A stretch of DNA of 20,515 nucleotides. Source: a virus. The notes under the pieces are model-generated. The model searched no databases. It was not told where the DNA came from and saw nothing but the letters and a program-made list of their open reading frames with translations. Positions 907 to 15,559 of the stretch are shown piece after piece; the stretch's first letter is position 1; each line of letters begins with the position of its first letter. Made by a program: the position numbers and the translations under genes. The DNA lies in IMG/VR virus record IMGVR_UViG_3300020453_000124, positions 1-20,515 of that record; one strand, written 5' to 3'.

Positions 907-939
907 TATAAAAAAAAGACCCTTAAAAAAGAGTCTTTT
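907..939 (-). terminator. Rho-independent terminator closing the leftmost small-gene unit
   Basis: AAAAGAC/GTCTTTT (914-920, 933-939) plus CTT/AAG (922-924, 929-931) form a stem with one mismatch and an AAAA loop. On the minus strand it is followed by TTTTTTTTATA. It lies about 35 bases beyond the stop of the gene at 973-1134. Its A/T arms may also let it work for plus-strand transcription. Confidence 0.8.
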
Positions 940-972
940 AATATTGTTGTTTATTGTTTAATTAATATGTTT

Positions 973-1134
973 TTAGTTATTAATAGAAATTTTTATGCTT
1001 TTTATAGTATTATCATTGTTTAATAATTTTATTAAATTCTTATATAATTTTGTTTTTTTTGGATAATTGCAAAACTTATAAAAAAACTTTTCATTATTAT
1101 TTTTATATTCAATTGTAAATTTGTGTAAATACAT
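973..1134 (-). CDS. Small hypothetical protein, 53 aa
   Basis: ATG at 1134 to TAA at 973-975. The protein starts MYLHKFTIEYKNNNEKFFYK and is very rich in Lys and Asn with few acidic residues, hence basic. No family is recognised. The start follows a copy of the TAACTAAAAACA motif by seven bases, and the stop lies inside another copy (968-979), the same cassette-like layout as its upstream neighbours. It is the last gene of its unit, since a terminator follows. Codon use and regular spacing make it a real gene in my view; the function is unknown. Confidence 0.7.
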   Translation of the reverse strand: MYLHKFTIEYKNNNEKFFYKFCNYPKKTKLYKNLIKLLNNDNTIKSIKISINN

Positions 1135-1146
1135 TTGTTTTTGTTT

Positions 1147-1800
1147 TTAGTTAGTTATTAAATCTTCCTCTAGTCTTTGTTCTAATTCATCTTGCTCTGA
1201 CCATTCAAACAAATAAGAGTGTATCATGCCCTCATCATTCAATTTAAATAACTTTGCGTCAGTATAACCCCCTCTAACATCTGCACCGTTATGAATTTGG
1301 ATTAAGATATAATTGTCTTCATTTATTGTTATGTTTGCACCTTGTAAGCATTGCGTTAAATCATTCTCATAGTTATAAGTATTCCAGCTGTTTTTAATTT
1401 TAACATTTGCTTTAATATTTAAATGTTTATATCTATCACCAGTATTGTCTAACCTTGTATCTGGCAAAGATTTAAGATGTTGCCACGCTTCTTTTGATAC
1501 CCCATAAACAAAAATATCACCATTTATTTTAGCATCCCAATCTTGACAATTAGTATTGATTTTATTAAATTCATTGCAAATATCATCTAATTGTAATTCT
1601 GATAAATAATGAAATACACTTAAATCCCTGTAAATATAATCACCTTCTTTATATATATGCTCTTCTGGTTCGTTTTCAAAGTCTTCAATTGTTTTCTTTT
1701 GGTTTCTTTGCCAGTGCCTACCATCAGAAAATCCACTATCACAAATGTGCTTTCCAGTACATTCTGTAAGCATTTCGTAAATTAATTTTTTTGTTTCCAT
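1147..1800 (-). CDS. Conserved phage protein of unknown function, 217 aa
   Basis: The largest gene of the left block. Recognisable conserved-looking blocks are GRHWQRN near residue 27, SVFHYLSELQLDD around 61-73, and ILIQIHNGADVRGGYTDAKL near 165-184. I recall this combination from phage and plasmid hypothetical proteins, without any assigned function; that recollection is not verified here. There is no signal peptide or membrane segment, and the C-terminus is acidic (EQRLEEDLITN). The start follows TAACTAAAAACA (1810-1821) by nine bases, and the stop TAA lies within the next copy of that motif (1142-1153). Confidence 0.85.
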   Translation of the reverse strand: METKKLIYEMLTECTGKHICDSGFSDGRHWQRNQKKTIEDFENEPEEHIYKEGDYIYRDLSVFHYLSELQLDDICNEFNKINTNCQDWDAKINGDIFVYGVSKEAWQHLKSLPDTRLDNTGDRYKHLNIKANVKIKNSWNTYNYENDLTQCLQGANITINEDNYILIQIHNGADVRGGYTDAKLFKLNDEGMIHSYLFEWSEQDELEQRLEEDLITN

Positions 1801-1828
1801 TTTATTATTTGTTTTTAGTTAGTTTTAT

Positions 1829-1984
1829 TTATATTCTAGTTAATAATTCTAAAAAAAACACACCTAGAAAAATTGAACTTAGAAACAAAGCAAAGATATA
1901 AAAAATATTTTTTGCAATTTGTAAAGCTCTATTTTTGTTTTTTATAGTGTGTTTTTCAAGTATATTTAATTTAAATTTTTGCAT
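1829..1984 (-). CDS. Small predicted membrane protein, 51 aa
   Basis: ATG at 1984 to TAA at 1829-1831. A basic N-terminal half (residues 1-25, with many Lys and Asn) is followed by one strongly hydrophobic segment at about 27-48 (NIFYIFALFLSSIFLGVFFL). This suggests a single-pass membrane protein with the positive end in the cytoplasm. The start is preceded by an A-rich leader (AAAACAAAAATA). It sits between the genes at 2013-2405 and 1147-1800, with spacing typical of this operon. No family is recognised; a role at the host envelope is only a guess. Confidence 0.7.
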   Translation of the reverse strand: MQKFKLNILEKHTIKNKNRALQIAKNIFYIFALFLSSIFLGVFFLELLTRI

Positions 1985-2012
1985 TATTTTTGTTTTATTA
2001 GTTAATATTATT

Positions 2013-2405
2013 TTAAAAATTGTCTATTAAACACTCATTCATTTTTTTATAAGTGCAATTAGACAAAGCAAATTTTATATTTGGAAATTTTTGACTTGCA
2101 ATTTTTTTAATTTCTCTGCTGTTTTTTTGTTCCCAAAAAACAGGTTTGTTTTCCCAGTCTGTTAAAGGAACCCAACAATCCAAAAAATCAGTATGTAAAA
2201 AAGTTATCCAACATTTTTCTAATTTATTTTGTTTTTCTTTTTCTTCTTCTTCTAATATCTCTAAAGCATAGATACAATGCTCTATTTTTTCTTTATCATC
2301 CCACATCATAACACCCTTTTGAATTTCTATATTTGCTAAAGTAGTTTTTAACCTTTCTTTTATTGCTTTTATATTGCAATCAATAAGTAAATTTTCTTTT
2401 CTCAT
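2013..2405 (-). CDS. Hypothetical protein, 130 aa
   Basis: First gene of the second left-block unit, directly downstream of the promoter at 2431-2458. The N-terminal half is predicted helical and highly charged (EILEEEEKEKQNKLEK near residues 49-64), possibly a short coiled coil. The C-terminal half has aromatic residues (CWITFLHTDFLDCWVPLTDW) and several Cys, but no regular CxxC metal site. No family is recognised. The start is preceded by AATTAAAAACAATTAAAAAA, a form of the local start-region motif. Confidence 0.75.
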   Translation of the reverse strand: MRKENLLIDCNIKAIKERLKTTLANIEIQKGVMMWDDKEKIEHCIYALEILEEEEKEKQNKLEKCWITFLHTDFLDCWVPLTDWENKPVFWEQKNSREIKKIASQKFPNIKFALSNCTYKKMNECLIDNF

Positions 2406-2430
2406 TTTTTTAATTGTTTTTAATTTGATA

Positions 2431-2458
2431 CAAATATAATACTTTTTGACAAAACAAA
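2431..2458 (-). promoter_or_regulatory. Promoter of the 2405-to-973 unit
   Basis: The minus strand reads TTTG (2458-2455), 16 bp, then TATATTTG (2438-2431), a perfect -7 box with a slightly short spacer. Transcription would start close to 2424, about 20 bases before the ATG at 2405. It lies between the terminator at 2636-2669 and the first gene, and about 105 bp downstream of the CAGTTTC repeat array. Confidence 0.6.
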
Positions 2459-2563
2459 GTAAAAAATGTTAAAAAATAATATGTTAATTTGTCATGTAAT
2501 TTATTGACATTTAACAAATTACTAGATTTGACACTAAATAAAAAAGTCGCAAAGGCAAACACT

Positions 2564-2615
2564 AGCAGTTCCAACAGTTTCGGCAGTTTCGTAACAGTTT
2601 CGTAGCAGTTACAAA
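2564..2615. repeat. Array of five CAGTT(T/C)C-type repeats
   Basis: CAGTT units preceded by G or A begin at 2565, 2574, 2583, 2594 and 2605, spaced 9, 9, 11 and 11 bp. The best units read GCAGTTTCGTA and ACAGTTTCGTA. A related array with strict 11-bp spacing lies at 4821-4862. The array lies outside any gene, between a terminator and the promoter at 2431-2458, so it is a candidate multi-site operator or iteron set. Confidence 0.65.
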
Positions 2616-2635
2616 AAATATTTTTAAAAAATTTT

Positions 2636-2669
2636 GTAAAAAAAAAAGAGCATAAATAAATATGCTCTT
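2636..2669 (-). terminator. Rho-independent terminator after the 2692-2970 gene
   Basis: AAGAGCATA (2646-2654) and TATGCTCTT (2661-2669) make a perfect 9-bp stem with a 6-base loop, followed on the minus strand by a long T-run. It closes the unit starting at 4655. Confidence 0.9.
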
Positions 2670-2691
2670 AATTAGTATTAACACAAGTATT

Positions 2692-2970
2692 TTAATCGCT
2701 TATAAGATACTTTTGCTTATTAGCCGACAAAGATACTAAAGTATTGCAATTAATCATTCTAAACTCTCCCTTTTGCATATCAAAGGCAGTTATTAAGTTA
2801 TGGTCATCAGGATTAAACCTTAAGCCAACACCCTTAACACCTTTTTGCACTTGTAATCTTGCAGTCATTAGTCTGTGTGAGCCATCTTTTTTTATAAACT
2901 CTACACTAAATATCTTACAATTATTATTGTATATAAGATTTTTAGCTTGGTTAGTTGTAATAGTTTGCAT
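2692..2970 (-). CDS. Small phage protein with predicted beta-barrel, 92 aa
   Basis: The protein begins MQTITTNQAKNLIYNN and contains FSVEFIKKDGSHRLMTARLQ, then GVKGVGLRFNP, NLITAFDMQKGEFRMINC. The strand pattern (SVEFIKKDGS, ITAFDMQKGEFR) resembles a family of small phage proteins I know by look (xxVxFIKRDGxxRxMxxRxGV, then LxVxDxxxxGYRxI), probably a small beta-barrel, with no established function. The start follows TAACTAAAAACA (2978-2989) by seven bases. It is the last gene of its unit and is followed by a strong terminator. A G-rich tract (3024-3068) sits in its 5' leader. Confidence 0.85.
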   Translation of the reverse strand: MQTITTNQAKNLIYNNNCKIFSVEFIKKDGSHRLMTARLQVQKGVKGVGLRFNPDDHNLITAFDMQKGEFRMINCNTLVSLSANKQKYLISD

Positions 2971-3023
2971 AATTTATTGTTTTTAGTTATTATTATTTTT
3001 TTAATTTTATTAGAACAAAGGCA

Positions 3024-3068
3024 TACCCCCTAGTACCCCCTGTACCCCCCTGTACCCCCTTATCCCCT
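3024..3068 (-). promoter_or_regulatory. G-rich tract, candidate RNA/DNA G-quadruplex
   Basis: On the minus (transcribed-sense) strand five runs of four to six G are separated by short ATAA, TACA, TACA and TACTA linkers. This fits a quadruplex-forming sequence with loops of 4-5 bases, and GGGGGTACA-like units recur at 9-10 bp. It lies between the stop of the 29-aa ORF (3075) and the start of the 2692-2970 gene, so it would be in the mRNA leader of the latter. In such AT-rich DNA it is very unlikely by chance. Confidence 0.6.
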
Positions 3069-3074
3069 ATCACA

Positions 3075-3164
3075 TTAACAAAATATTAGAGTTATTATTA
3101 AATAAACCCATAATAAAATACTTTGTGAGATAAAAGGTAATTCTTTTGGTTTTACTTCTTTCAT
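3075..3164 (-). CDS. 29-aa predicted membrane microprotein
   Basis: ATG at 3164 to TAA at 3075-3077. A short charged start (MKEVKPKELPF) leads into one hydrophobic stretch (SILLWVYLIITLIF, about residues 15-28) that ends almost at the C-terminus. The start follows TAACTAAAAACA (3171-3182) by six bases, like its neighbours, and this is the main reason to believe it is translated. No family can be assigned to a protein this small. Confidence 0.55.
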   Translation of the reverse strand: MKEVKPKELPFISQSILLWVYLIITLIFC

Positions 3165-3175
3165 TTTATTTGTTT

Positions 3176-3355
3176 TTAGTTATTATTATTTTTTACAAAG
3201 ACCTCACCATATATATCAAATATATTGTTTAATACTTTTCTTTGTTGTTCTCTTTCATTATCATTCTTTTTTGATACTTCTTCTTTATCATTTACGTTAA
3301 TATGTTTATCACCTAACATATCATTTAATTTATTTTTAAATTCATCTAGTTTCAT
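3176..3355 (-). CDS. Small charged hypothetical protein, 59 aa
   Basis: ATG at 3355 to TAA at 3176-3178. The protein starts MKLDEFKNKLNDMLGDKH, continues with a highly charged helical middle (EEVSKKNDNEREQQRKVL) and ends in four Asn. No family is recognised. The start follows TAACTAAAAACA (3365-3376) by nine bases, and its own stop codon is inside the next copy (3171-3182). The asparagine-rich end is partly forced by that motif, which reads AAC TAA in frame. Confidence 0.7.
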   Translation of the reverse strand: MKLDEFKNKLNDMLGDKHINVNDKEEVSKKNDNEREQQRKVLNNIFDIYGEVFVKNNNN

Positions 3356-3369
3356 TTTTTTTATTGTTT

Positions 3370-3642
3370 TTAGTTATTATTTATTTTTTCTTTTTTAATT
3401 AATTTTGATTTATAAGTATGATTTTTAATCATTAATTCAAATTTAATTTTTGCTTTTTCATATGTTGTAAATAAACCATTTGAACAAAAAGGATTATTTG
3501 TTGTTTCATATACTGCATATGAAATGCCATTTGCATAAGGTTTATTAAGTTTAATAAGGTTTACAAAACTTTCATCTTGAAAATTTGCATACTCTATTAG
3601 TGGGCTATTAAAAGCCCTTTTTGGTAATATTAAATAAGACAT
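3370..3642 (-). CDS. Hypothetical protein, 90 aa
   Basis: Starts MSYLILPKRAFNSPLIEY and contains an ISYAVYETTNNPFC block, then a basic helical end (KAKIKFELMIKNHTYKSKLIKK). No family is recognised. The start follows TAACTAAAAACA (3646-3657) by only three bases. The stop TAA at 3370-3372 lies inside the next copy of the motif, so the protein ends in INNN, like the neighbouring proteins that end in Asn. Confidence 0.75.
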   Translation of the reverse strand: MSYLILPKRAFNSPLIEYANFQDESFVNLIKLNKPYANGISYAVYETTNNPFCSNGLFTTYEKAKIKFELMIKNHTYKSKLIKKEKINNN

Positions 3643-3661
3643 AATTGTTTTTAGTTAGTTA

Positions 3662-3832
3662 TTATTTATTTATATAGTTTTTAAAAGCAAATTCAAATGC
3701 TTCTTTTCTGTCTTGGTTTATTGGTTTGTTATCTTCTTGTATTTCTTTAGTTTCTGTGCCATTTATAACACCACTAACAAAACCAAAACCATAAGTTGCA
3801 ATTGCTAATATTATTGTAAGTATAAAGTCCAT
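3662..3832 (-). CDS. Small membrane-anchored protein, 56 aa
   Basis: ATG at 3832 to TAA at 3662-3664. Residues 3-24 (FILTIILAIATYGFGFVSGV) form an N-terminal hydrophobic anchor, followed by a soluble charged tail (TETKEIQEDNKPINQDRKEAF). The arrangement suggests a single-pass protein or an uncleaved signal anchor. The start is preceded by AACTAAAATAAAATAAA, a variant of the local motif. No family is recognised. It is one of three microproteins in this block with a clear membrane segment. Confidence 0.7.
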   Translation of the reverse strand: MDFILTIILAIATYGFGFVSGVINGTETKEIQEDNKPINQDRKEAFEFAFKNYINK

Positions 3833-3850
3833 TTTATTTTATTTTAGTTA

Positions 3851-4027
3851 TTATTTTTTACACAAAAAAAGTGTAATGCTTTCATCTCCATCATTCCATA
3901 CTTCAATATCATCGAAAATAATATCAAAGTCATCATCTTCTCCATTAATATTATTACCTAACAAGTGTATGTACTTATCTTGATTTTCCACTTGTTGTAG
4001 TTCTTTAATAAATTCTTTTACTGTCAT
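3851..4027 (-). CDS. Small acidic phage protein, 58 aa
   Basis: ATG at 4027 to TAA at 3851-3853. It begins MTVKEFIKELQQVENQDKYI and has an acidic middle (EDDDFDIIFDDIEVWNDGDE) with a hydrophobic end (SITLFLCKK). The N-terminal TVKEFIxxL and the DxEVWNDGDESITLFL block resemble a widespread class of small phage proteins that I cannot name. The strong negative charge could suit a DNA mimic or an inhibitor of a host protein, but this is speculation. The start follows AAACTAAAAACAAATAAAA. Confidence 0.7.
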   Translation of the reverse strand: MTVKEFIKELQQVENQDKYIHLLGNNINGEDDDFDIIFDDIEVWNDGDESITLFLCKK

Positions 4028-4044
4028 TTTTATTTGTTTTTAGT

Positions 4045-4272
4045 TTAACTTTTTTTATTATCGTTCAACACATATTTTGACATATCATTATTAATGATTA
4101 TACGTTTTTTAAATTTATATTCATTAACGAAATCAACAAATTTCTTTTTGACTTCTTGTTTTCCTGAATATGCAAAATAGTTATTCAAATCAATTGTATT
4201 TTGTCTATACAATTTGTCTAATTCTTTTTTTTGTTTAAGCTCTGCAATCATATTTAGCTTCTTGTAATTCAT
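4045..4272 (-). CDS. Basic hypothetical protein, up to 75 aa
   Basis: A Lys-rich helical N-terminus (AELKQKKELDKLYRQ) is followed by a segment containing NNYFAYSGKQEVKKKFVDFV. No family is recognised. With the first ATG (4272) it overlaps the upstream gene by 38 bases; the ATG at 4251 (MIAELKQ) would reduce that to 17, and both are possible. The stop TAA (4045-4047) merges with the local ACTAAAAACA motif. Confidence 0.65.
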   Translation of the reverse strand: MNYKKLNMIAELKQKKELDKLYRQNTIDLNNYFAYSGKQEVKKKFVDFVNEYKFKKRIIINNDMSKYVLNDNKKS

Positions 4273-4513
4273 ATATTCTTAATTGGTCGTATTCATAATC
4301 TTCTATAGGTTCGCATATATCATCACAACAATTGCAAACATATCTATCTATAAAATCTCTCTCTTCTTTGCAAGTATCACAATGAGCTACACCATCTATA
4401 ACCTCATTCTTTGTTCTAGTATCACATACATAGCAAAACTCTTGTAGTTCTTCCATACTATCACCACAACAATTGCTAACCATATCTATAAAATGTTGTT
4501 CGTAGTTGTACAT
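4235..4513 (-). CDS. Cys-rich, probably zinc-binding protein, 92 aa
   Basis: The frame is open from an ATG at 4537, but I choose the ATG at 4513 (MYNYEQHFIDMVSN), because the preceding 46-aa gene stops at 4515 and AAAAACAATTAAT sits directly before it. Cys motifs are SNCCGD, CYVC, CDTC and CNCCDDIC, giving about ten Cys, enough for two zinc sites. CYVCDTRTKNEVIDG then HCDTC resembles a zinc ribbon. The rest is acidic. Small phage zinc-ribbon proteins often act on host transcription or DNA, but nothing here fixes the role. Confidence 0.75.
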   Translation of the reverse strand: MYNYEQHFIDMVSNCCGDSMEELQEFCYVCDTRTKNEVIDGVAHCDTCKEERDFIDRYVCNCCDDICEPIEDYEYDQLRIYELQEAKYDCRA

Positions 4514-4514
4514 A

Positions 4515-4655
4515 TTAATTGTTTTTATATAATTCATTATACTTCATGTGTTCTTTGACATAATCTATATCATATTCTAATTCTCCTCTTTCATAAGATA
4601 ATTGATTTTCATAAGTGTCGTATGGTAGTATATATTTTTCTATGTAATCTTTCAT
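4515..4655 (-). CDS. Small hypothetical protein, 46 aa
   Basis: ATG at 4655 to TAA at 4515-4517, the first gene after the promoter at 4684-4714. The protein is Tyr- and Glu-rich (MKDYIEKYILPYDTYENQLS) and ends YKNN. One base separates its stop from the ATG of the next gene, which suggests coupled translation. The start follows TTAAAAACAATTAAT. No family is recognised. Confidence 0.65.
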   Translation of the reverse strand: MKDYIEKYILPYDTYENQLSYERGELEYDIDYVKEHMKYNELYKNN

Positions 4656-4683
4656 ATTAATTGTTTTTAATTGTTTTTTTTGA

Positions 4684-4714
4684 CAAATGTATAAAAAAAT
4701 ATTTAATAATCAAC
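4684..4714 (-). promoter_or_regulatory. Promoter of the 4655-to-2692 unit
   Basis: The minus strand reads GTTG, then exactly 19 bp, then TACATTTG (4691-4684), a perfect -7 box. Transcription would start near 4677, about 22 bases before the ATG at 4655. Confidence 0.7.
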
Positions 4715-4739
4715 ATTAATTTTAAAAAAATGTTAATAA

Positions 4740-4750
4740 GACAATTTGTC
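4740..4750. promoter_or_regulatory. Palindrome GACAATTTGTC, candidate operator
   Basis: GACAA and TTGTC flank one central base. It lies 26 bp upstream of the -33 element of the 4684-4714 promoter and next to a GTCGCAAA sequence that also occurs near the other left-block promoter. This is a possible binding site for a dimeric regulator. Confidence 0.35.
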
Positions 4751-4820
4751 GCAAAATATAAGTGGTTAGTTTTTAGTTGTTTATGATTTTTGTGTGCAAA
4801 ATCACCCTTCAAAAATACCT

Positions 4821-4862
4821 AGCAGTTTCACAGCAGTTTCACAGCAGTTTCACAGCAGTTTT
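4821..4862. repeat. 11-bp tandem repeat AGCAGTTTCAC, 3.8 copies
   Basis: Exact units lie at 4821-4831, 4832-4842 and 4843-4853, and a partial unit at 4854-4862. The period is one helical turn. The last 13 bases overlap the end of the VRR-NUC gene, whose stop TGA (4850-4852) is inside the repeat. A diverged array with the same CAGTTTC core lies at 2564-2615. Confidence 0.85.
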
Positions 4863-5197
4863 ATGTACCACTCTAAAGTTTCAATGCACTCATCAAGACC
4901 TTTGCAAACAACAGCGTAGTAACCTAGTTCGTTTAAATCTTCTATCCACTGCTTCTGATGTTTAGTTGGATAGCATTTCTTGTCTGCTTTTATTTCTATA
5001 AACAGTCCTGCATATTGTTTATTTGTTTTTAGTATTTGCATATCAGGAAAACCCTTAACATAGCCAGTCTTCTTAGCTAATATTGCTTGTTTCATTGATG
5101 TTCGTATGCCACCTAAACTGGCACAGTATCTAAGATTTGGGTATTGCAACTTTATATATGTACAAAAAGAAGATTGTACTGTTGCTTCTTTATTCAT
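4850..5197 (-). CDS. VRR-NUC domain nuclease
   Basis: The whole 115-aa protein is a VRR-NUC (PD-(D/E)XK superfamily) domain. The fit comes from a Q near residue 8, GIRTSMKQAILAKKTGYVKG (30-49), GFPDMQI with D52, FIEIKAD with E68 and K70, and Q81 before W84. Together these give the D-ExK-Q metal-dependent nuclease core. Stand-alone phage VRR-NUC proteins are thought to cut branched or flapped DNA during replication or recombination; cleavage specificity here is unknown. It overlaps the upstream HTH gene by 8 bases. Its last codons and its stop are made of the 11-bp repeat array. Confidence 0.88.
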   Translation of the reverse strand: MNKEATVQSSFCTYIKLQYPNLRYCASLGGIRTSMKQAILAKKTGYVKGFPDMQILKTNKQYAGLFIEIKADKKCYPTKHQKQWIEDLNELGYYAVVCKGLDECIETLEWYIKLL

Positions 5198-5399
5198 TAT
5201 AGGTTGTACCTTTAATAAGCTGATACATTAGTGGTTGTGATACCTCGTACTTTCTTGCTAATGCAGAAACTGATATACCCCCCCTATGGTACTCCCCCCT
5301 TATCCCCTCTGCTTCTTGGAAGGTAAACTTTCTTTTAGCATAGCCACCACCTCTGCTATCTTTTCTGTCTGATGTTTTTATCTTTCTAATTTTAGGCAT
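5190..5399 (-). CDS. Small helix-turn-helix DNA-binding protein, 69 aa
   Basis: A basic N-terminus (KIRKIKTSDRKDSRGGGYAK) is followed by a resolvase- or homeodomain-like HTH at about residues 28-62. The arrangement is FTFQEAEGIRGEYHRGGISV, then SALARKYEVSQPLMYQLIKG, as in HTH_38/Hin-type modules, where the second helix-turn is the recognition helix. There is no catalytic domain, so it is probably a regulator. The DNA encoding residues around EGIRGEYHRGG carries long G-runs, one of them sharing 14 bases with the G-rich tract at 3024-3068. Its own target site cannot be told from sequence. Confidence 0.75.
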   Translation of the reverse strand: MPKIRKIKTSDRKDSRGGGYAKRKFTFQEAEGIRGEYHRGGISVSALARKYEVSQPLMYQLIKGTTYNE

Positions 5400-5401
5400 A
5401 A

Positions 5402-5647
5402 TTAAAATCTATCTGTTGTAAAACCATACTGGTCTTCTACCTCTACATCTGTTATTGTTATCACTACTTTTTCTAATCTTTTTTTATTTAGATAACATAT
5501 TCTGTTTTTTATAACCTCATCTTGTTCTATAACTTTTTTGTCATCTGTTAGTGCAAATGTATCTATTACACCATTCTTACCTCTAGTTGCTTTTCCTTTG
5601 TTTCTTATATTGTATTTTACAAATACTCTATAGATTGGCTTTTGCAT
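5402..5647 (-). CDS. Hypothetical protein, 81 aa
   Basis: A small basic protein starting MQKPIYRVFVKYNIRNKGKA and ending VVITITDVEVEDQYGFTTDRF. The alternating pattern suggests beta strands. No family is recognised. It overlaps the DUF3310 gene upstream by 20 bases and stops three bases before the HTH gene, so it is part of the same operon. Confidence 0.7.
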   Translation of the reverse strand: MQKPIYRVFVKYNIRNKGKATRGKNGVIDTFALTDDKKVIEQDEVIKNRICYLNKKRLEKVVITITDVEVEDQYGFTTDRF

Positions 5648-6008
5648 CTTCTATCTTCTCTAGCTCAAATTCTAAATGAGCTATAGCTTTCTTTAGGCAA
5701 TCTACTGGTGTATCATGCTTGTGATAGCTTCGTAAGATGTAGGTCGTGGCAGTTGCTAAGTGGTAAGGCAAATCAAAGTTATCACAAACTTTTCTTGCTT
5801 CATAACCATTTCTACCTTTGTAGTAATAAGGCACTCTGTTATCTCTGTTCTCTTGTCTTACTCCTGTTGGAAATAATCCACCTGTAACAGTTTCATGCTT
5901 TTTTTCTAAACCTAATTCTTCTTTACTCATCCTCATTTTAGGGTTAATATTTGTTGTTGATGATGTGTTTCTATCAAACTCATAGTAATATTTACTTTTT
6001 CCTGACAT
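5628..6008 (-). CDS. DUF3310 family protein
   Basis: The C-terminal half (about residues 61-118) matches DUF3310: YYYKGRNGYEARKVCDNFDL, then LATATTYILRSYHKHDTPVD, then CLKKAIAHLEFELEKI, the usual Y-x-G...A-x-x-YILR...K-x-D-x-x-KA-x-x-L pattern. These proteins are widespread in phages near nucleotide and replication genes, and their biochemical role is not settled. Residues 1-60 are a polar, probably flexible extension. A TAAGTTTG -7-like box lies 20 bases upstream of the start (6028-6035). Confidence 0.85.
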   Translation of the reverse strand: MSGKSKYYYEFDRNTSSTTNINPKMRMSKEELGLEKKHETVTGGLFPTGVRQENRDNRVPYYYKGRNGYEARKVCDNFDLPYHLATATTYILRSYHKHDTPVDCLKKAIAHLEFELEKIEDAKANL

Positions 6009-6027
6009 AATTTATTTTTTGTTTTTA

Positions 6028-6035
6028 CAAACTTA
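6028..6035 (-). promoter_or_regulatory. Possible -7 promoter box before the DUF3310 gene
   Basis: The minus strand reads TAAGTTTG, a perfect TAnnTTTG match in the 67-base gap before the start at 6008. No TTTG is seen at about 19 bp further upstream, so it may be weak or accidental. Confidence 0.35.
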
Positions 6036-6075
6036 ATGTTTTTTTTTAATTTTTATTTTTTGTAAAATATATTTA

Positions 6076-6453
6076 TTAAGAATTAGTTGTTAATTGTTTA
6101 GGTTCAGGTCTATAGTATGGTACAATTCTAGGGTCTGCACCATTGTCTACCTTTGCTCTTGCGTTCCATATTAATTGTTTATGTTGCCTTAACCATTTCA
6201 TATAAGTTGGTACATTAAGATGTATAAAATCACCATTGTGCTGACTTCTTACACCTAAACTAAATGCATTTTTAGCATCATCAAAGTAAAAATTTTTGTA
6301 AACTCTTTGTAAATCATCAGCTAAACTTTCTGCTAACACCTCTAATGTTTCTTCTTCTACATTGTGCTGACCTAACTCAATATAGGTCTTACTTAAAATG
6401 TCTATGCATCTTATTACTAAATCTGATTTTGTCATTGTTTTAATTAACTTCAT
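6076..6453 (-). CDS. Conserved phage protein, replication-associated by position, 125 aa
   Basis: A mostly helical protein with the recognisable block FDDAKNAFSLGVRSQHNGDF near residues 57-76 and VPTYMKWLRQHKQLIWNARA near 81-100. I recall this block from proteins encoded beside replication initiators in Bacteroidota phages, but know no function. It overlaps the replication gene by 14 bases with the ATG at 6453. The ATG at 6435 (MTKSDL), preceded by AATTAAAACA, is an equally good start without overlap. Confidence 0.7.
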   Translation of the reverse strand: MKLIKTMTKSDLVIRCIDILSKTYIELGQHNVEEETLEVLAESLADDLQRVYKNFYFDDAKNAFSLGVRSQHNGDFIHLNVPTYMKWLRQHKQLIWNARAKVDNGADPRIVPYYRPEPKQLTTNS

Positions 6454-7096
6454 ATTTATTTTTTAATTTTTGTTTAACATTTATGTTCTTTTGTAAATGA
6501 GAATGTATTTTACTCATGCCCTTTACATTTTTTTTTCGGTTTCTCTCCCAATTTCTAATAGCAGCTTTCCAATCTTTCATCTTTGTCTTACCAACCATCC
6601 AACCCTTGCTCTGATAAAAATCATAGAACTGCTCTGCACTTATTCCATTATCCCTTAAACGACAATAGTCTTCTATCTCACTAACTAAAGGAACAATAAA
6701 ATTTTTTCTTTTTTTTATTTTTTCTTTTATTATACTTGTATTATTAATACTTGTATTATTATCCTTAAAGTTTTCTTTAATACCCCCCTTTAAGTTTTCT
6801 TTAATACCCCCTTTAAGAATACTTATATACCTCTTATCAATTTCTTTAGTACCCTCTTTATAAGTGTAACTTGTTGATACATAACCATTTACCACTAATT
6901 CGCTTATCCATTTAGAAATAGTAACTTTACTCTTCTCATAAAGGTCAGCAAAATACTTATTATTTGCAAAGCAAAAACCATTCTCATTTGTAAGACAAGT
7001 AATCTCACCATACAGCAGTTTCGCATTGGCTGATAATTTTTTATCATATCTGACCTCTGCAGATATTATAGCATAGTAACTTGGTTTCTCTTTCAT
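6440..7096 (-). CDS. Phage replication protein with winged-helix N-terminus
   Basis: Residues 5-75 (YYAIISAEVRYDKKLSANAK, then ITCLTNENGFCFANNKYFAD, then KVTISKWISELVVNGYVS) form the winged-helix domain common to phage and plasmid replication initiators (lambda O, DnaD and replisome-organiser type). A linker of tandem repeats follows: LKGGIKEN twice, then FKDN, then NNTSI twice. The C-terminal domain (about 138-190: VSEIEDYCRLRDNGIS, FYDFYQSKGWMVGKTKMKDW) resembles the end of DnaD-like replication proteins. The role is probably origin binding and helicase recruitment. The linker DNA is a 24-bp tandem repeat, which may itself be origin sequence. A terminator lies directly upstream (7103-7165), and no clear own promoter is visible. 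Confidence 0.8.
   Translation of the reverse strand: MKEKPSYYAIISAEVRYDKKLSANAKLLYGEITCLTNENGFCFANNKYFADLYEKSKVTISKWISELVVNGYVSTSYTYKEGTKEIDKRYISILKGGIKENLKGGIKENFKDNNTSINNTSIIKEKIKKRKNFIVPLVSEIEDYCRLRDNGISAEQFYDFYQSKGWMVGKTKMKDWKAAIRNWERNRKKNVKGMSKIHSHLQKNINVKQKLKNKYEVN
6768..6811. repeat. 24-bp-period repeat inside the replication gene
   Basis: AAGTTTTCTTTAATACCCCC occurs exactly at 6768-6787 and again at 6792-6811, and a third degenerate unit starts at 6762. It encodes the LKGGIKEN repeats. An adjacent ACTTGTATTATTA repeat (6734-6760) encodes NNTSI twice. In lambda and several Gram-positive phages the origin iterons lie inside the initiator gene in just this linker. Confidence 0.75.
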
Positions 7097-7102
7097 AGTT
7101 GT

Positions 7103-7165
7103 AAAAAAAGAGGGAAGGCAAAAACATTTAATATTATGAAAGGCAATATTGCCAACCTCCCCTCT
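7103..7165 (-). terminator. Terminator after the SSB-like gene, with an inner palindrome
   Basis: On the minus strand AGAGGGGAGG (7165-7156) pairs with CCTTCCCTCT (7118-7109), 10 bp with one G-U, followed by TTTTTTT. The large loop contains the perfect 12-base palindrome GGCAATATTGCC (7142-7153), which can form its own hairpin. It lies between the SSB-like gene and the replication gene and would lower read-through from the 8763 promoter. Confidence 0.7.
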
Positions 7166-7171
7166 GTATTG

Positions 7172-7426
7172 TTAAAATGGTAAATCTTCTTCTGTTTTAG
7201 TATTATCTACTGTTTCTTGTTTTGGTGGCTCATATGTGTTTTCATAAGCATAATGAGTAGCACCTTTTTCAGAAGGTTCTTTTCTTTCACATATTACAAG
7301 TGATACCCACCCTTTATTCTCTATTGCTTTTAGCTCATCCATTTTAAAGTTAGCTACAAGCATAGAACCATATTGAGTTTTTATCTCTTTAATGCTACTA
7401 GGCAAATAATTTTTCTCTTTTTTCAT
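7172..7426 (-). CDS. Small single-stranded-DNA-binding-like protein
   Basis: An 84-aa protein with a predicted small beta domain (SIKEIKTQYGSMLVANFKMD, then GWVSLVICERKEPSEKGATH), followed by a low-complexity acidic tail ending EEDLPF. The ending copies the bacterial SSB tip (DDDIPF type), which docks replication and repair proteins. The core is shorter than a normal SSB OB-fold (about 110 aa) but matches the look of small phage ssDNA-binding proteins, with GW-x-x-ITICxRKEPSxxGxTH-like features. It overlaps the DnaA-like gene by 29 bases and precedes the replication gene, which supports a replication role. Function is inferred from tail and context. Confidence 0.65.
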   Translation of the reverse strand: MKKEKNYLPSSIKEIKTQYGSMLVANFKMDELKAIENKGWVSLVICERKEPSEKGATHYAYENTYEPPKQETVDNTKTEEDLPF

Positions 7427-7832
7427 TTCTTTGTTTTTTAAGGTTATATAATTTGGTTAATTCTAAATTGTTTACTCTGTTTTGTTTTTCCAAAGCATCA
7501 ATCTTCTCATCTAATGTTACACTATCTATCTTACTTAAAATTGTTTTATAAGTTTCTGAATCAGTTATATAAGTTTTGTAGAAAAACTCTACTTGCCTAT
7601 AATGATACAAGACAGATGCATGATGCAGATTAGTTATACCACCAATCTCCTCTAAAGATAAATCAAATATTGTTCTAAGTACAAAAATATACATACGTTT
7701 AGCTTGTATAAAATTTTTCTTTCTTGAACCTAAAAATATTTCATCTTCTTTTACATTAAATTTGTTTTCTAATTCTTTAATAATTACATCGTGAAAGTAA
7801 CTACTAAACTTTAGTTTTCTTTTATTGTTCAT
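7398..7832 (-). CDS. Stand-alone DnaA domain IV-like DNA-binding protein
   Basis: Residues 25-85 match the C-terminal DNA-binding domain of DnaA (Bac_DnaA_C): GSRKKNFIQAKRMYIFVLRT (35-54), LSLEEIGGITN (59-69), then HHASVLYHYRQV (70-81), which corresponds to the DnaA signature (R/H)DHSTVLHA. There is no AAA+ ATPase domain, so it can bind DNA but not melt it as full-length DnaA does. A helical, charged tail (about 100-140) may form a coiled coil. It lies in the same operon as the SSB-like protein. Likely roles are binding the phage or host origin, or competing with host DnaA. The final His-Ala-Ser is a conservative variant of the usual Asp-His-Ser. Confidence 0.82.
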   Translation of the reverse strand: MNNKRKLKFSSYFHDVIIKELENKFNVKEDEIFLGSRKKNFIQAKRMYIFVLRTIFDLSLEEIGGITNLHHASVLYHYRQVEFFYKTYITDSETYKTILSKIDSVTLDEKIDALEKQNRVNNLELTKLYNLKKQRNEKREKLFA

Positions 7833-7838
7833 GTTTTA

Positions 7839-8081
7839 TTATTTTAAATCGTATTCTATTATATCTATTACATCTTTTACACTCATATTAAAGTGGTCGG
7901 ATATAATTCTCATGTGATAGTATCTTAATAAGGTAGTGTCTAAAATATATCTCCTAGCAGTTACTTCACTTATATCAAGTAAAAAAGAAAACTGTCTAGT
8001 AGACATTCCTTTAATTCTTAAAAATGCTTCAAACTCATTATGAGCTTCTCTTATCTGTTGGAATTTATATTTTTTTGTCAT
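7839..8081 (-). CDS. Small HTH protein, 80 aa
   Basis: A helix-turn-helix is visible at about residues 23-48 (IKGMSTRQFSFLLDISEVTA, then RRYILDTTLL), of the Cro/CI or phage-regulator type, followed by a short helical end (MSVKDVIDIIEYDLK). The protein overlaps the upstream gene by four bases (ATGA), so translation is coupled. It could be a repressor or a replication accessory factor. No specific family is assigned. Confidence 0.7.
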   Translation of the reverse strand: MTKKYKFQQIREAHNEFEAFLRIKGMSTRQFSFLLDISEVTARRYILDTTLLRYYHMRIISDHFNMSVKDVIDIIEYDLK

Positions 8082-8332
8082 TTAAACATACCATTTCTTA
8101 CCATCTGTTTATATTGGTCTTTAGGGTCGCTAGGTACTTGGTTCTCTAAAATATATAGTATAACCTCTTCTGCTTCTAATTCAGTATAGGTTGGTAATTT
8201 ATTTAAGATTTCTTGTTGTTCATCTAGTGGTAAAGCCGACCTGTGTATTCTTGTTTCAATGGTAGCCATTTGAAATAAAGTTATCTCGCATGGCTTACCA
8301 TCTAACAAATAATCTAACAAGTCATCATTCAC
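8078..8332 (-). CDS. Hypothetical protein, 84 aa
   Basis: An acidic, predicted all-helical protein (MNDDLLDYLLDGKPCEITLF, later LPTYTELEAEEVILYILENQ). No family is recognised. Its ATG overlaps the stop of the gene upstream as TAATG (8332), and its own stop overlaps the next start as ATGA, so it is locked into the 8763-7172 operon. Confidence 0.75.
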   Translation of the reverse strand: MNDDLLDYLLDGKPCEITLFQMATIETRIHRSALPLDEQQEILNKLPTYTELEAEEVILYILENQVPSDPKDQYKQMVRNGMFK

Positions 8333-8763
8333 TAATCTACTATCTCATCTTGCCCAAAGACACCTTGCTCATAAAACCCTGCTATCTTTAGAACAACTCT
8401 TGACATAGCTCTTTTTTCTGCCATAGCAACAGGAAACTTTTTTCCACCTCCCATTAAATTAGCATCAGCAGCTTCACCAAAAGACATCATGTTACGAACA
8501 TCTTTGTTTTTAGTTTTCATTGTAGCAACAGCTTTTATTACAACACCATCAGCATCTAACTTTATAACATCATATGCTACAGTAATACCCTGTTTGCTTA
8601 CAATTTTATCTATACCAGTTCTTGTAATTATGACAAAACCTCTTTTGTCTTTGTAAACATCTTCTTCAACTAAATTATTTTCTAAGAATAATCTTCTTAA
8701 AGCATCCTTTCTAGTTTCTTTTGTTTCTTCTGGTTGTTCAATTGTTTTATTTTTTCTACTCAT
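8332..8763 (-). CDS. Possible ssDNA annealing (ERF/Sak-like) recombination protein
   Basis: A 143-aa protein with a polar N-terminus, a central beta-rich part (GFVIITRTGIDKIVSKQGIT, then VVIKAVATMKTKNKDVRNMM) and a C-terminal motif FPVAMAEKRAMSRVVLKIAG (about residues 109-128) followed by an acidic end. The A-E-K-R-A-x-x-R-x-x-L-K-x-x-G helix resembles the A-E-T-x-A-x-G-R-A-L helix of ERF/Sak-type annealing proteins of phages. The protein is short for that family (about 180-200 aa), and the match is a motif only. It is first in a DNA-replication operon, with a strong promoter at 8790-8820 just upstream. Confidence 0.5.
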   Translation of the reverse strand: MSRKNKTIEQPEETKETRKDALRRLFLENNLVEEDVYKDKRGFVIITRTGIDKIVSKQGITVAYDVIKLDADGVVIKAVATMKTKNKDVRNMMSFGEAADANLMGGGKKFPVAMAEKRAMSRVVLKIAGFYEQGVFGQDEIVD

Positions 8764-8789
8764 TTTTTTTATTTTTAGTTAATAATGAG

Positions 8790-8820
8790 CAAAAGTATAA
8801 AATTGAAATTAACTACCAAA
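8790..8820 (-). promoter_or_regulatory. Consensus promoter of the 8763-to-7172 operon
   Basis: The minus strand reads TTTG (8820-8817), exactly 19 bp, TACTTTTG (8797-8790), a full Bacteroidota housekeeping consensus. It lies in the 73-base gap before the ATG at 8763, and a TAACTAAAAATA leader follows it. Confidence 0.85.
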
Positions 8821-8836
8821 CTTTTTTAACAAAATT

Positions 8837-9931
8837 TTAAAAATAATGTGTGATTCTTGCTACTTGACCTGATTTTTTCTCATGTAAAAACCCTTCTACA
8901 GCTTTAGGCACACCAGTAAAACCTTTTCTACTATGCCAACTATCTGTTCCTGATGGACTTCTTAGGTATTCTACAGTAACACCCACATAATCTTTAGCAT
9001 CTAACCACTTGTGCTTTACTTTATGGTGTATATGATGTAAGTAAAAATACCTATACTTAGTGTCAGACCACATTTTAGGTTGTTCTTGTGCCATCAAAAG
9101 AGGTAAGTTTATCATTTTAGCACCATCACCATGCTCTAAACCAATTAGATTACTACCATACTGGTAATATTTTCTGTGTGCTACACTAATATCAAACTGT
9201 ACATCATCATCTTTTCTAAACCAACTCTTTAATGCATGAGCCAAATGAAAACCTGACTGGTAATCGTGATTACTCATACTATGTAATACATCTACAGGTG
9301 CTATTTGTCTTAACATTTCTATACATTTTACATAAAGCATCAATGCAATCTCAAAATGCTCCCACCATTTACCATCAACATCTTGTCTTGTACCTGCTGT
9401 TGTTTGATTGTATACGTTGTCAATGTGCAATATATCGTTCCCTATGCAAAATAAAACCTTTTCTATAGCAAACCCTTCTGACTTCTGCAAAAGTCCTTGT
9501 ATACCCTCTAAAACACGATTTACAGCAGTTTCACAGTCATATGCACTACCAGTTTCTAATTCTTTAGCATATTTACCTATATGTATATCAGCAGGATTTA
9601 CAACAAGTAAATGATTGCTATCTTTATCTCTTTCTATTTTTGTGTAGGTTGGAGAGTAGTCTTCTATTAGGTCTGTTATCTTATTTAATATTTGGTCTTC
9701 AGCAATGCCATACTCTTCTTTTGTTACTATAGAGAATCTAAGTTCTCCCTTCATGTTTTGCCAATGCTTAACACTAACTACTTCCTTCTTGTCTATACCT
9801 CTCTCTTTTAAATGTAGGTCTAGTGCAGTATTGCCATTTATGTTGTCTACATCAGTTCCTCTGAACTCATATATTAAATCTGCTTCTTCAGCAGATAGTC
9901 TTAATCTTTTACCTTTTCTTTTTTCTGTCAT
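8837..9931 (-). CDS. Calcineurin-like metallophosphoesterase
   Basis: A 364-aa protein with all five metallophosphoesterase motifs. DIH is at 115-117, GND at 164-166 followed by H169, NHD at 221-223, HGD at 267-269 and HIHH at 300-303. These bind two metal ions and hydrolyse phosphodiesters or monoesters. Phage members of this type are often annotated as SbcD-like exonucleases, but there is no capping domain here, so substrate is open. The N-terminal 100 residues are a basic segment with a possible HTH (LSAEEADLIYEFRGTDVDNI). It has its own promoter candidate (9964-9990) after the late terminators and is separated from the next operon by another promoter. Confidence 0.85.
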   Translation of the reverse strand: MTEKRKGKRLRLSAEEADLIYEFRGTDVDNINGNTALDLHLKERGIDKKEVVSVKHWQNMKGELRFSIVTKEEYGIAEDQILNKITDLIEDYSPTYTKIERDKDSNHLLVVNPADIHIGKYAKELETGSAYDCETAVNRVLEGIQGLLQKSEGFAIEKVLFCIGNDILHIDNVYNQTTAGTRQDVDGKWWEHFEIALMLYVKCIEMLRQIAPVDVLHSMSNHDYQSGFHLAHALKSWFRKDDDVQFDISVAHRKYYQYGSNLIGLEHGDGAKMINLPLLMAQEQPKMWSDTKYRYFYLHHIHHKVKHKWLDAKDYVGVTVEYLRSPSGTDSWHSRKGFTGVPKAVEGFLHEKKSGQVARITHYF

Positions 9932-9963
9932 GATTTTTAATTTTTAGTTTTGCTAAAAGTATG

Positions 9964-9990
9964 CAAAATAATAGGTGCTTTTAAAACAAA
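9964..9990 (-). promoter_or_regulatory. Possible promoter of the metallophosphoesterase gene
   Basis: The minus strand reads TTTG (9990-9987), 15 bp, TTATTTTG (9971-9964). The -7 box has one mismatch and the spacer is short. The -33 box coincides with the T-run of the terminator before it. Confidence 0.4.
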
Positions 9991-10013
9991 AATGGGATGT
10001 TATTAACACCCCA
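9984..10013 (-). terminator. Terminator of the late operon
   Basis: On the minus strand TGGGGTGTT (10013-10005) pairs with AACATCCCA (10001-9993), 9 bp with one G-U and a 3-base loop. It is followed by TTTTTGTTTT. It ends transcription after the holin-like gene. Confidence 0.85.
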
Positions 10014-10024
10014 CTCTTGAAACT

Positions 10025-10053
10025 AAAAACAATTTTCAACCAGAATAGGTTGA
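10025..10053 (-). terminator. Second, weaker terminator hairpin
   Basis: TCAACC (10036-10041) and GGTTGA (10048-10053) form a 6-bp stem with a 6-base loop; on the minus strand AAATTGTTTTT follows. With the stronger hairpin beyond it, it would make a tandem terminator at the end of the late operon. Confidence 0.5.
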
Positions 10054-10070
10054 TAGAAGTGCAAATGTAA

Positions 10071-10355
10071 TTATTTTTTCTGATTACAATCGCCCTTTTG
10101 ACAATTTTTTTCAAATACTGAAAACAATAGTGGTAAGATTGCTAAAAAACTTAAACCCAAATTCATAATAGTGATGCCATTTAAAGATATATCTGCACTA
10201 GCAGCTATAACTAAAACACCACTTATAGTTCTCTTAGAAGAATACTTACCTTTAGTGTCTTTGAAAAGTTCTAATACTGATTTTATTAATTCAGTAATAG
10301 GGTTGATAGCTTGTTTTACTAAGCTACCTGTTATCATATCTACTATCTTACTCAT
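10071..10355 (-). CDS. Holin-like membrane protein, 94 aa
   Basis: An amphipathic N-terminal part (residues 1-36) is followed by a basic SSKRT segment and two hydrophobic stretches at about 44-58 (ISGVLVIAASADIS) and 61-81 (TIMNLGLSFLAILPLLFSVF). The tail is charged and has two Cys. Size, membrane layout, the SSKR motif and position beside an M15 endolysin fit a phage holin, which makes the inner-membrane holes that release the endolysin. Its ATG overlaps the stop of the preceding small membrane gene (TAATG). It is the last gene of the late operon. Holin function is inferred. Confidence 0.65.
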   Translation of the reverse strand: MSKIVDMITGSLVKQAINPITELIKSVLELFKDTKGKYSSKRTISGVLVIAASADISLNGITIMNLGLSFLAILPLLFSVFEKNCQKGDCNQKK

Positions 10356-10528
10356 TATTTTTTAATGTCAGCAATTCCCTGACCTAAAATTAAAGTTAGT
10401 ATTGCATAGTAAACCTTTTCAACTTCTGCTTCTGTTAAACCTAACTTTGCTGCTGCAAATGGTACTAAAACTGCTGAAACTGTATACCAAAACTTTTTTG
10501 AGTTAAACATCTTTTTTAACATTTCCAT
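10355..10528 (-). CDS. Small membrane protein of the lysis cassette, 57 aa
   Basis: ATG at 10528 to TAA at 10355-10357. It begins MEMLKKMFNSKKFWYTVSAV and ends ILGQGIADIKK. There are two hydrophobic stretches (about 14-29 and 39-52), the first after a Lys-rich N-terminus. NSKKFWY, then LGLTEAEVEK, then LILGQGIAD is a pattern I know from small phage proteins near endolysins. It may be a second holin, an antiholin or a spanin-like partner. An alternative ATG at 10522 would remove two residues. Confidence 0.7.
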   Translation of the reverse strand: MEMLKKMFNSKKFWYTVSAVLVPFAAAKLGLTEAEVEKVYYAILTLILGQGIADIKK

Positions 10529-10552
10529 ATTTTTATTTATTTAAATTAGTAA

Positions 10553-10912
10553 TTAATACAACCAAATAACTGGCTGTACCTTATCTTGGTCTGCATCTAC
10601 ATGAATAAAATTCCCTTCCTTACTCAAACCAATTCTGACAAACCCTGCCTCTGCAAGACCACCTAAAATCAATGCTCTCTGATATGAGTCTTTACATTCT
10701 ATATCACAAGCTATGCCTTTTATATGGCTGCTAGAAGGATTTTGTATTGACAGGGGGTGATTTGGACACCTATACCCTGATGTTATTTTATATTTAATAT
10801 TACTGTAAGACCTAGCTCTATCTAAATCTTCTACAAAGTCTAAGTCAATCATGTTAGTTTTACAACCACATTTACAAGCAAACTCGCTTTTCTTAAAGTG
10901 TTCAAATTTCAT
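10553..10912 (-). CDS. M15-family peptidase, probable endolysin
   Basis: A 119-aa single-domain peptidase of the M15_3 (VanY/D-Ala-D-Ala carboxypeptidase-like) family. Visible are FACKCGC at 11-17, TSGYRCPNHP at 44-53, SSHIKGIACDI at 61-71 with the zinc ligands H63 and D70, and FIHVD at 102-106 with the zinc ligand H104. Such phage enzymes cut cell-wall peptide cross-links (L-Ala-D-Glu or D-Ala bonds) to lyse the host. There is no signal peptide, so a holin is needed, and holin-like proteins follow. It starts at the TAATG overlap with the small basic gene upstream. The specific bond cut cannot be told from sequence. Confidence 0.9.
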   Translation of the reverse strand: MKFEHFKKSEFACKCGCKTNMIDLDFVEDLDRARSYSNIKYKITSGYRCPNHPLSIQNPSSSHIKGIACDIECKDSYQRALILGGLAEAGFVRIGLSKEGNFIHVDADQDKVQPVIWLY

Positions 10913-11034
10913 TATTTGCCCTGTCCTCTTTTAGGTTTTTTATAGCCATTCTGATTTACACTAGCATTTTTAGAATGTACTCCCTTTCTCTTTTTGTTTT
11001 TCTTTTTTCTGTAAGTAAATACTATCTTAGCCAT
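10912..11034 (-). CDS. Very basic 40-aa protein
   Basis: ATG at 11034 to TAA at 10912-10914, overlapping the endolysin start as TAATG. Nearly half the residues are Lys or Arg (TYRKKKNKKRKGVHSKNASV, then YKKPKRGQGK). The KGVHSK...YKKPxRGQG pattern resembles small phage proteins with such an ending that I have seen, without function. It could bind nucleic acid or the virion interior. Overlap with the endolysin gene and the conserved ending support its being real. Confidence 0.75.
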   Translation of the reverse strand: MAKIVFTYRKKKNKKRKGVHSKNASVNQNGYKKPKRGQGK

Positions 11035-11036
11035 AA

Positions 11037-11480
11037 TTATACACTAGCTACAAATATTTCTACATCTAAAGTAGCATTTGCTTTTACTTGTATACTTCCT
11101 AAATCAGCCATAGTACCAAAACTAGGAGATGTATCTGCTTCTCCTAATAGTATATCATCTGCACCACCTAAAATATGTGATTGTCCTGCTTTTAATTCAA
11201 CTTGATACAAACTATTAGAAGCTACACATGCCAATTCTAAAGTGTTTGTAGTGTCTAAGTTAGTTACTCTTATATACCTAACATCTTCTTTATCTATTTG
11301 AACTGCACCACCATAAGAATTAGCATCAAAAGCTGCTAAATAAGTTACTTGACCTGAAGTACAAGTTACAATCCTTTCATATACATTGTTAATTCCTGTA
11401 GTTGTTACAGTATTTGTTGTTCCTCTAATTGCACCATTTAAGGTTACACTCTCTGTTAAAGTTGTTACTAAGTCTGCCAT
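11037..11480 (-). CDS. Probable virion structural protein, 147 aa
   Basis: A Thr-, Ser- and Val-rich protein with the alternating pattern of beta structure (LVTTLTESVTLNGAIRGTTN, later RYIRVTNLDTTNTLELACVA, later HILGGADDILLGE). It has no membrane segment or catalytic motif. The pattern fits a small jelly-roll or Ig-like decoration or tail protein. Its ATG overlaps the stop of the preceding small membrane gene as TAATG. Late-operon position supports the virion role, which is inferred. Confidence 0.65.
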   Translation of the reverse strand: MADLVTTLTESVTLNGAIRGTTNTVTTTGINNVYERIVTCTSGQVTYLAAFDANSYGGAVQIDKEDVRYIRVTNLDTTNTLELACVASNSLYQVELKAGQSHILGGADDILLGEADTSPSFGTMADLGSIQVKANATLDVEIFVASV

Positions 11481-11635
11481 TATTTTTTTGTTTTTGTAAA
11501 TTTATATATTGAGAATCCTATCGCCATTAGTAAAGATACAGTCGTTAGCACCTCATTTACTGATGCTAAAGATATACCTATTGCTCCTGCATTTGCCACC
11601 CCCACTTGTATTGTATCTTCAATTGTTTCTTTCAT
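11480..11635 (-). CDS. Small predicted membrane protein, 51 aa
   Basis: ATG at 11635 to TAA at 11480-11482, again overlapping the next start as TAATG. A short acidic N-terminus (MKETIEDT) is followed by a hydrophobic or weakly polar stretch (about 10-45: GVANAGAIGISLASVNEV, then LTTVSLLMAIGFSIYKF) and a Lys-rich end (TKTKK). It is one or two transmembrane helices. It looks like a class of small holin-like proteins, but it lies among virion genes rather than in the lysis cassette. Confidence 0.7.
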   Translation of the reverse strand: MKETIEDTIQVGVANAGAIGISLASVNEVLTTVSLLMAIGFSIYKFTKTKK

Positions 11636-11648
11636 TGTATTTTTATTA

Positions 11649-12735: not shown

Positions 12736-12746
12736 ATCTCTAAATT

Positions 12747-13334: not shown

Positions 13335-13336
13335 AT

Positions 13337-14677: not shown

Positions 14678-14828
14678 CTTTTGTTTTTGTTATTTTTTCT
14701 ATTAAATTACTAAGCCCTGCTTCTTCGTAAGCATAAGCTAATTCTTCTTGTGTTGCTTTCGCCCAAGAAATACTAAAATCTCCTTTGTAAGTTCTACCTG
14801 AAGATAATTTTGCTTTGTAAGTTGCCAT
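14616..14828 (-). CDS. Small late protein, 70 aa
   Basis: The frame is open from an ATG at 14885, but I choose the ATG at 14828 (MATYKAKLSSGRTYKGDFSI), because the 19 residues before it look unlike a protein start and the MATYKAKL start is preceded by an A-rich leader. The protein has a short beta-like part, then a helical part (WAKATQEELAYAYEEAGLSN) and a very charged tail (TKTKDESEKTSKKKSSKKAD). I recall small ATYKAKLxSGxTYKG proteins from Bacteroidota phages, function unknown. The last 62 bases overlap the portal gene in another frame. Confidence 0.7.
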   Translation of the reverse strand: MATYKAKLSSGRTYKGDFSISWAKATQEELAYAYEEAGLSNLIEKITKTKDESEKTSKKKSSKKADSTEE

Positions 14829-14888
14829 AATTGTATAAATTTTTAAATGTGATAAATCTACAATTTTTTTGTTGCAATCACACATATT

Positions 14889-14937: not shown

Positions 14938-14953
14938 ATGTATCTAATTAGTA

Positions 14954-15535: not shown

Positions 15536-15559
15536 ATTATTATTATTTATTAAAAGTTA

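Follow-up and report, generated by a model that had tools for sequence, protein, structure and literature searches.

A repeated stop-and-start leader at sites of single-gene turnover in the small-gene block of a probable Flavobacteriia phage

A 12-base sequence, TAACTAAAAACA, is repeated at the gene junctions of a block of tiny genes in a phage genome record, and single genes turn over at its copies, with empty sites in relatives. Close relatives of the phage gain, lose or swap whole genes at copies of the motif, and the repeat thereby serves as a standard joint in the exchange of genes. In the reading that we favour, and hold with moderate confidence, the motif is the leader of small accessory genes, combining a stop with an initiation function, and the block behaves as a cassette array in a marine phage of Flavobacteriia. 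The 5' part of the leader, (TAAC)nTAA, provides stops in two or three frames, often including the upstream gene's own stop, and the 3' part, CTAAAAACA followed by 3-9 A/T-rich bases, would form an unstructured initiation signal in which the A-run falls at about -10 to -14, with further A bases at -6 and -3. A unit made of a leader and its gene could be deleted, inserted or exchanged between leader copies with the reading and translation of its neighbours unharmed. Since the same leader is nearly universal in the block, such units would be exchangeable without harm and the block would behave as a cassette array. The exchange itself may proceed by annealing or recombination between leader copies, perhaps through a Rad52-like protein of the phage.

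A phage genome with a low-GC block of tiny genes

The window (the whole stretch of DNA analysed) is a virus record of 20,515 bases with its genes on the minus strand. These genes encode a tail tape measure fragment, a head maturation protease, a capsid-type protein, a portal, an endolysin, an exonuclease, a replication initiator and a VRR-NUC nuclease, after which comes a low-GC block of tiny genes (968-4655) of mostly unknown function. A DNA search found no close isolated phage and a protein search found distant isolated relatives only. The host is very probably a flavobacterium, because relatives of a 143-aa protein (8332-8763) are found solely in Flavobacterium and Tenacibaculum phages (49/49 records). 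The capsid-type gene has hundreds of uncultivated relatives, and none in 84,980 bacterial and archaeal species (one genome each). The relatives compared here are metagenomic fragments with mechanical gene calls, and gene families were merged at a fixed threshold; motif copies in relatives were counted in a non-redundant set of 703 kb.

The motif is confined to the coding strand and precedes gene starts

Seven exact copies of TAACTAAAAACA were found within 968-3657, all on the minus (coding) strand and none on the plus strand, while 0.009-0.09 copies are expected (Markov orders 1-4). When up to two mismatches were allowed, 29 matches were obtained, whereas 100 shuffles gave 16 on average and 26 at most. 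This bears out the original prediction, which had placed seven exact copies and several near-copies at the junctions of this block. In the relatives, 80 copies were counted; for 76 of them an ORF starts within 15 nt, and the opposite strand adds one more copy. The motif is therefore not equally common away from junctions. Letter-permuted 12-mers average 1.8 copies in the same 703 kb, which, together with the Markov and shuffle expectations, rules out chance or A-rich composition as the source of the motif. Host-wide use of the exact motif was also rejected, as it occurs in six bacterial genomes with 1-7 copies per genome, near the reversed control. The copies in the window are as follows:

968-979, minus strand: exact copy; supplies the stop of the last gene (973-1134), with similarity to the closest relative picking up again at 974
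1142-1153, minus strand: exact copy; supplies the stop of the 217-aa gene; leader of the 53-aa gene
1810-1821, minus strand: exact copy; leader of the 217-aa gene (1147-1800)
2415-2426, minus strand: near copy AAATTAAAAACA; heads the second operon as its leader; the relative is similar up to the ATG
2978-2989, minus strand: exact copy; leader of the WYL_2-domain gene (2692-2970)
3171-3182, minus strand: exact copy; supplies the stop of the 59-aa gene; leader of a 29-codon ORF
3365-3376, minus strand: exact copy; supplies the stop of the 90-aa gene; leader of the 59-aa gene
3646-3657, minus strand: exact copy, lengthened to TAACTAACTAAAAACA; leader of the 90-aa gene; in relatives, several different genes follow this upstream end
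3839-3850, minus strand: near copy TAACTAAAATAA; leader of the 56-aa gene
4035-4046, minus strand: near copy AAACTAAAAACA; leader of the 58-aa gene

The leader joins stop codons to a putative initiation signal

The second TAA of the motif is the stop codon of the upstream gene at exactly four of the seven exact copies (stops ending 973, 1147, 3176 and 3370), in line with the expectation of at least four; at the other three, the upstream gene ends before the motif. An ATG follows 3-9 nt 3' of the motif at six of the seven copies, again as anticipated, and opens ORFs of 29-217 codons. The seventh copy (968) stands after the last gene, with only a terminator beyond. Upstream genes that read into the leader acquire the C-termini NN, NNNN or KNN, which explains why several unrelated proteins end in Asn: those of 217, 53, 59 and 90 aa and likewise the 46-aa protein (...YKNN), whose end lies inside a variant leader copy. 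Overlapping TAAC units yield TAACTAACTAA, which carries stops in all three frames. Three-frame stops within the 19 nt ending in the core were counted in 20 of 53 distinct leaders (mean 6.5 and maximum 13 in dinucleotide shuffles), a count that overstates independence because the leaders are related by descent. In a second lineage, one gene reads LTKNKNK through the leader and stops at an ATGA overlap.

Flavobacterium uses no Shine-Dalgarno sequence, and A at -3, -6 and -12/-13 was identified by profiling and reporters in F. johnsoniae as a positive determinant of initiation (PMC6847099). In the phage block, A reaches a frequency of 0.80 at -12, 0.80 at -6 and 0.72 at -3, compared with 0.59, 0.49 and 0.46 at the same positions in 276 genes of a Flavobacteriales genome. 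Folding energy at the leaders (-25 to +20) averages -0.15 kcal/mol versus -1.95 at the other genes of the window, and in Bacteroidota genomes where TAACTAAAAACAATT-ATG is present, it often sits before real genes. From this known biology, we infer that the motif would act as a translation-initiation leader of the Bacteroidota type, with an A-run around -12 and A also at -6 and -3; the composition fits the translational role that had been proposed for the A-rich leader. Its A positions, low structure and lack of a Shine-Dalgarno sequence liken it to the Kozak-like region of Flavobacteriia (PMC6847099), but that region is a loose base preference, whereas the phage leader is a near-identical repeat fused to stop codons.

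Relatives differ by whole genes between leader copies

The closest relative, IMGVR_UViG_3300030451_001097, is collinear with the window over 4653-18878 at ~95% identity, and no aligned piece has more than 48 gap positions, so no gene was gained or lost across this region. This stable core of 14 kb beside the array provides an internal control: within 968-4655, only 17% matches the same relative at ≥85%. The following elements are involved in the differences:

4653-4669, minus strand: first copy of a 17-bp direct repeat, TAAAAACAATTAATATG; leader heading the first operon
4511-4527, minus strand: second copy of TAAAAACAATTAATATG; marks where the 46-aa gene ends and the next one starts
4515-4655, minus strand: 46-aa gene; not in the closest relative (empty site)
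3851-4027, minus strand: 58-aa gene; between leaders, not in the closest relative
3370-3642, minus strand: 90-aa gene; one of several alternative genes in its slot

Similarity to the closest relative breaks on the ATG after the first leader. There, the window reads candidate promoter, TAAAAACAATTAATATG, 46-aa gene, TAAAAACAATTAATATG, next gene, and the relative reads candidate promoter, TAAAAACAATTAATATG, next gene, which makes a clean empty site for the 46-aa gene exactly between the two 17-bp leader copies. The 58-aa gene is also missing between leaders in this relative, and at the head of the second operon, candidate promoter and leader are common to both genomes up to the ATG and are followed by unrelated genes. 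Across close relatives, a conserved 56-aa gene end and leader are followed by several different genes. The second lineage behaves similarly: beyond a gene end with 86-93% identity across 300 nt, six different genes are found, the switch always coming after the leader, and a second empty site is seen (L157 vs L129). DNA similarity ends within 20 nt of the motif for 34% of right ends and 21% of left ends compared with ~8% of random positions, an excess that is in part automatic, since any alignment will run on to the gene border through a leader that both sequences share. Gene content in relatives thus does differ between motif copies, and the original prediction that genes are swapped as cassettes stands to this extent, with empty sites and alternative genes in two lineages. 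Exchange at the motif only, however, does not hold: swaps also occur at motif-free junctions, one junction with the motif is mostly stable and one breakpoint is intragenic (see below).

A predicted Rad52-like protein could mediate exchange between leaders

A candidate for the exchange machinery is encoded outside the block:

8332-8763, minus strand: 143-aa protein, predicted to fold like Rad52 and a candidate for an annealing recombinase; its leader is the near copy TAACTAAAAATA at 8770-8781

The model of this protein (pLDDT 84.6) has a three-strand sheet with helices, and its best PDB matches are human RAD52 chains, which are weak (E 3e-3, TM ~0.4). It has no HMM match, and records of isolated Flavobacterium and Tenacibaculum phages list it as a hypothetical protein. 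Names such as Rad52, ERF and RecT appear among its viral matches. Phage recombinases of this broad group tolerate diverged substrates in vivo (PMC3945230), and the predicted annealing protein makes leader-mediated exchange plausible. In another lineage (L105, L128, L139, L149), the gene for the Rad52-like protein itself has the exact motif as its leader.

We tentatively raise the possibility that the leader is a self-maintaining exchange site and the block a cassette array without an integrase. Selection for translation would keep the stop-start sequence identical at each gene, this identity would let the annealing recombinase of the phage gain, lose and reorder single genes, and the three-frame stops would make any upstream gene acceptable.

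Turnover extends beyond the leader junctions

Neighbour turnover was 56% at leader junctions versus 41% at junctions without the leader, a modest difference, and a strict rule in which a leader means a variable junction and its absence a stable one was rejected, as the two values amount to a modest trend. The exact motif before the WYL_2 gene is retained at a mostly stable junction. In gene 3176-3355, the C-terminal 30 residues are kept and the N-terminus is changed in the closest relative, which is an intragenic exchange. No signal of homogenisation of leaders within a genome was seen: leaders of one genome are not more alike than leaders of different genomes, which gives no hint of gene conversion. 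Comparing the heads and tails of leaders position by position proved too dependent on spacing to place crossovers. For the phage recombinases that are known, 12-17 bp of identity is a short stretch. Given the modest gap in turnover, the mostly stable WYL_2 junction, the intragenic exchange, the lack of any sign of gene conversion and the fragmentary loci, crossing-over inside the leader is a step that we infer.

Several of these observations would also be expected if the leader were purely a translation signal, with illegitimate recombination striking at random places and selection retaining intact genes with their leaders. This explanation, which we regard as possible if somewhat doubtful, is consistent with the fit of the leader to a Bacteroidota initiation signal, with the WYL_2 junction and the swaps that lack the motif, with the absence of within-genome homogenisation and with the single intragenic exchange. 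General initiation, however, needs only loose A-richness, and no repeated exact leader was found in four related isolated phages checked (Flavobacterium, Tenacibaculum) or in sampled bacterial genomes. Furthermore, in two lineages the borders of the empty sites coincide exactly with the repeat, and the stop-codon part is unnecessary for initiation.

As a separate observation, gene 3176-3355 and L238 4657-4839 share the conserved C-terminus KNDNEREQQRKVLNNIFDIYGxVFVKNNNN with the N-terminus exchanged.

Candidate promoters and terminator-like hairpins lie at the operon ends

Candidate promoters and hairpins delimit two operons in the block:

4684-4691, minus strand: candidate Bacteroidota -7 box (TAnnTTTG), TACATTTG; just 5' of the first operon; consensus match only
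2646-2669, minus strand: terminator-like hairpin after the first operon
2431-2438, minus strand: candidate -7 box, TATATTTG; 5' of the second operon; consensus match only, kept in several relatives
914-939, minus strand: terminator-like hairpin after the second operon

TAnnTTTG has 51 matches in the window versus 40 in shuffles. Hairpins lie at the ends of both operons and at two other places, and none at leader junctions.

The presence of one sequence at many starts of a single gene block could also point to a regulatory site, where a protein or RNA of the phage or host binds at each early gene and turns the whole block on or off, and regulation has been suggested for the SAS of mycobacteriophages, discussed below. 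We consider this improbable: the opposite strand is almost bare of copies (1 beside 80), and hence there is no obvious antisense partner, the conserved positions are ordinary initiation determinants, and no candidate regulator was found. An integron-like, site-specific system, with the motif recognised by an integrase or transposase, would suit a small-gene array with uniform junctions and precise gain or loss of single genes, but is very improbable, as the motif has no inverted repeat, no integrase or transposase match was found among the window proteins scanned, and leader variants are tolerated.

Comparison with known systems

How phage genes are swapped cleanly has long been debated, with homology at short boundary sequences on one side and random breakage followed by selection on the other. 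Boundary sequences are, to our knowledge, rarely seen. This clade offers one identifiable boundary sequence, many times repeated and with an understandable job, and the array is an easy source of small accessory phage genes that can be read off between leaders.

In lambdoid phages, conserved boundary sequences at mosaic junctions have been described (Clark et al. 2001, Susskind and Botstein 1978, as related in PMC3029335). The phage leader resembles them in being a short conserved sequence at gene borders where the gene content of relatives changes; unlike lambdoid boundaries as described there, it recurs at most junctions of a single block, with a job of its own in stop and initiation. The SAS of cluster K mycobacteriophages is an asymmetric repeat found 3-7 bp before the starts of non-structural genes, mostly in one orientation and rare in hosts, for which a role in initiation has been proposed (PMC3203893). 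The phage motif also lies a few bp (3-9 nt) before the ATG, in a similar place and before a similar type of gene. The SAS consensus GGGATAGGAGCCC is, however, unrelated to TAACTAAAAACA, and the stop-codon part belongs to the phage leader, none being reported for SAS in the account given in PMC3203893. According to the same account, extended inverted repeats accompany about half of SAS genes, whereas none was seen at the phage leader junctions examined. The PeSL of T4-like phages, summarised in PMC4503421 (Arbiol 2010, Comeau 2014), are cassettes of a promoter and a stem-loop, and like the phage leader are repeated intergenic elements tied to the shuffling of small genes. In contrast to the PeSL so summarised, the phage leader junctions mostly have neither promoter nor stem-loop, and their common part is a translation leader. 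An integron-type array has a recombination site with inverted repeats, whereas the phage motif and leaders are not self-complementary.

Other repeats in the window

A 23-bp tandem repeat, GCAACTAACGATTTTGTTAAATA, occurs in 2.7 copies in a non-coding stretch (385-445), and a tandem 24-bp repeat lies within the replication-initiator gene (6763-6817), where the protein repeats LKGGIKEN. A series of G-runs (GGGGG each 5-7 nt) stands 5' of the WYL_2 gene (3024-3069, minus strand) and is kept in all close relatives; a similar series lies at 5277-5310, inside a 69-aa gene (5190-5399). Tandem 11-bp repeats, AGCAGTTTCAC and AACAGTTTCGT, are found at 4821-4861 and 2573-2610, upstream of the two operon heads, where they may be operators, and L238 has a similar tandem repeat series before its second operon.
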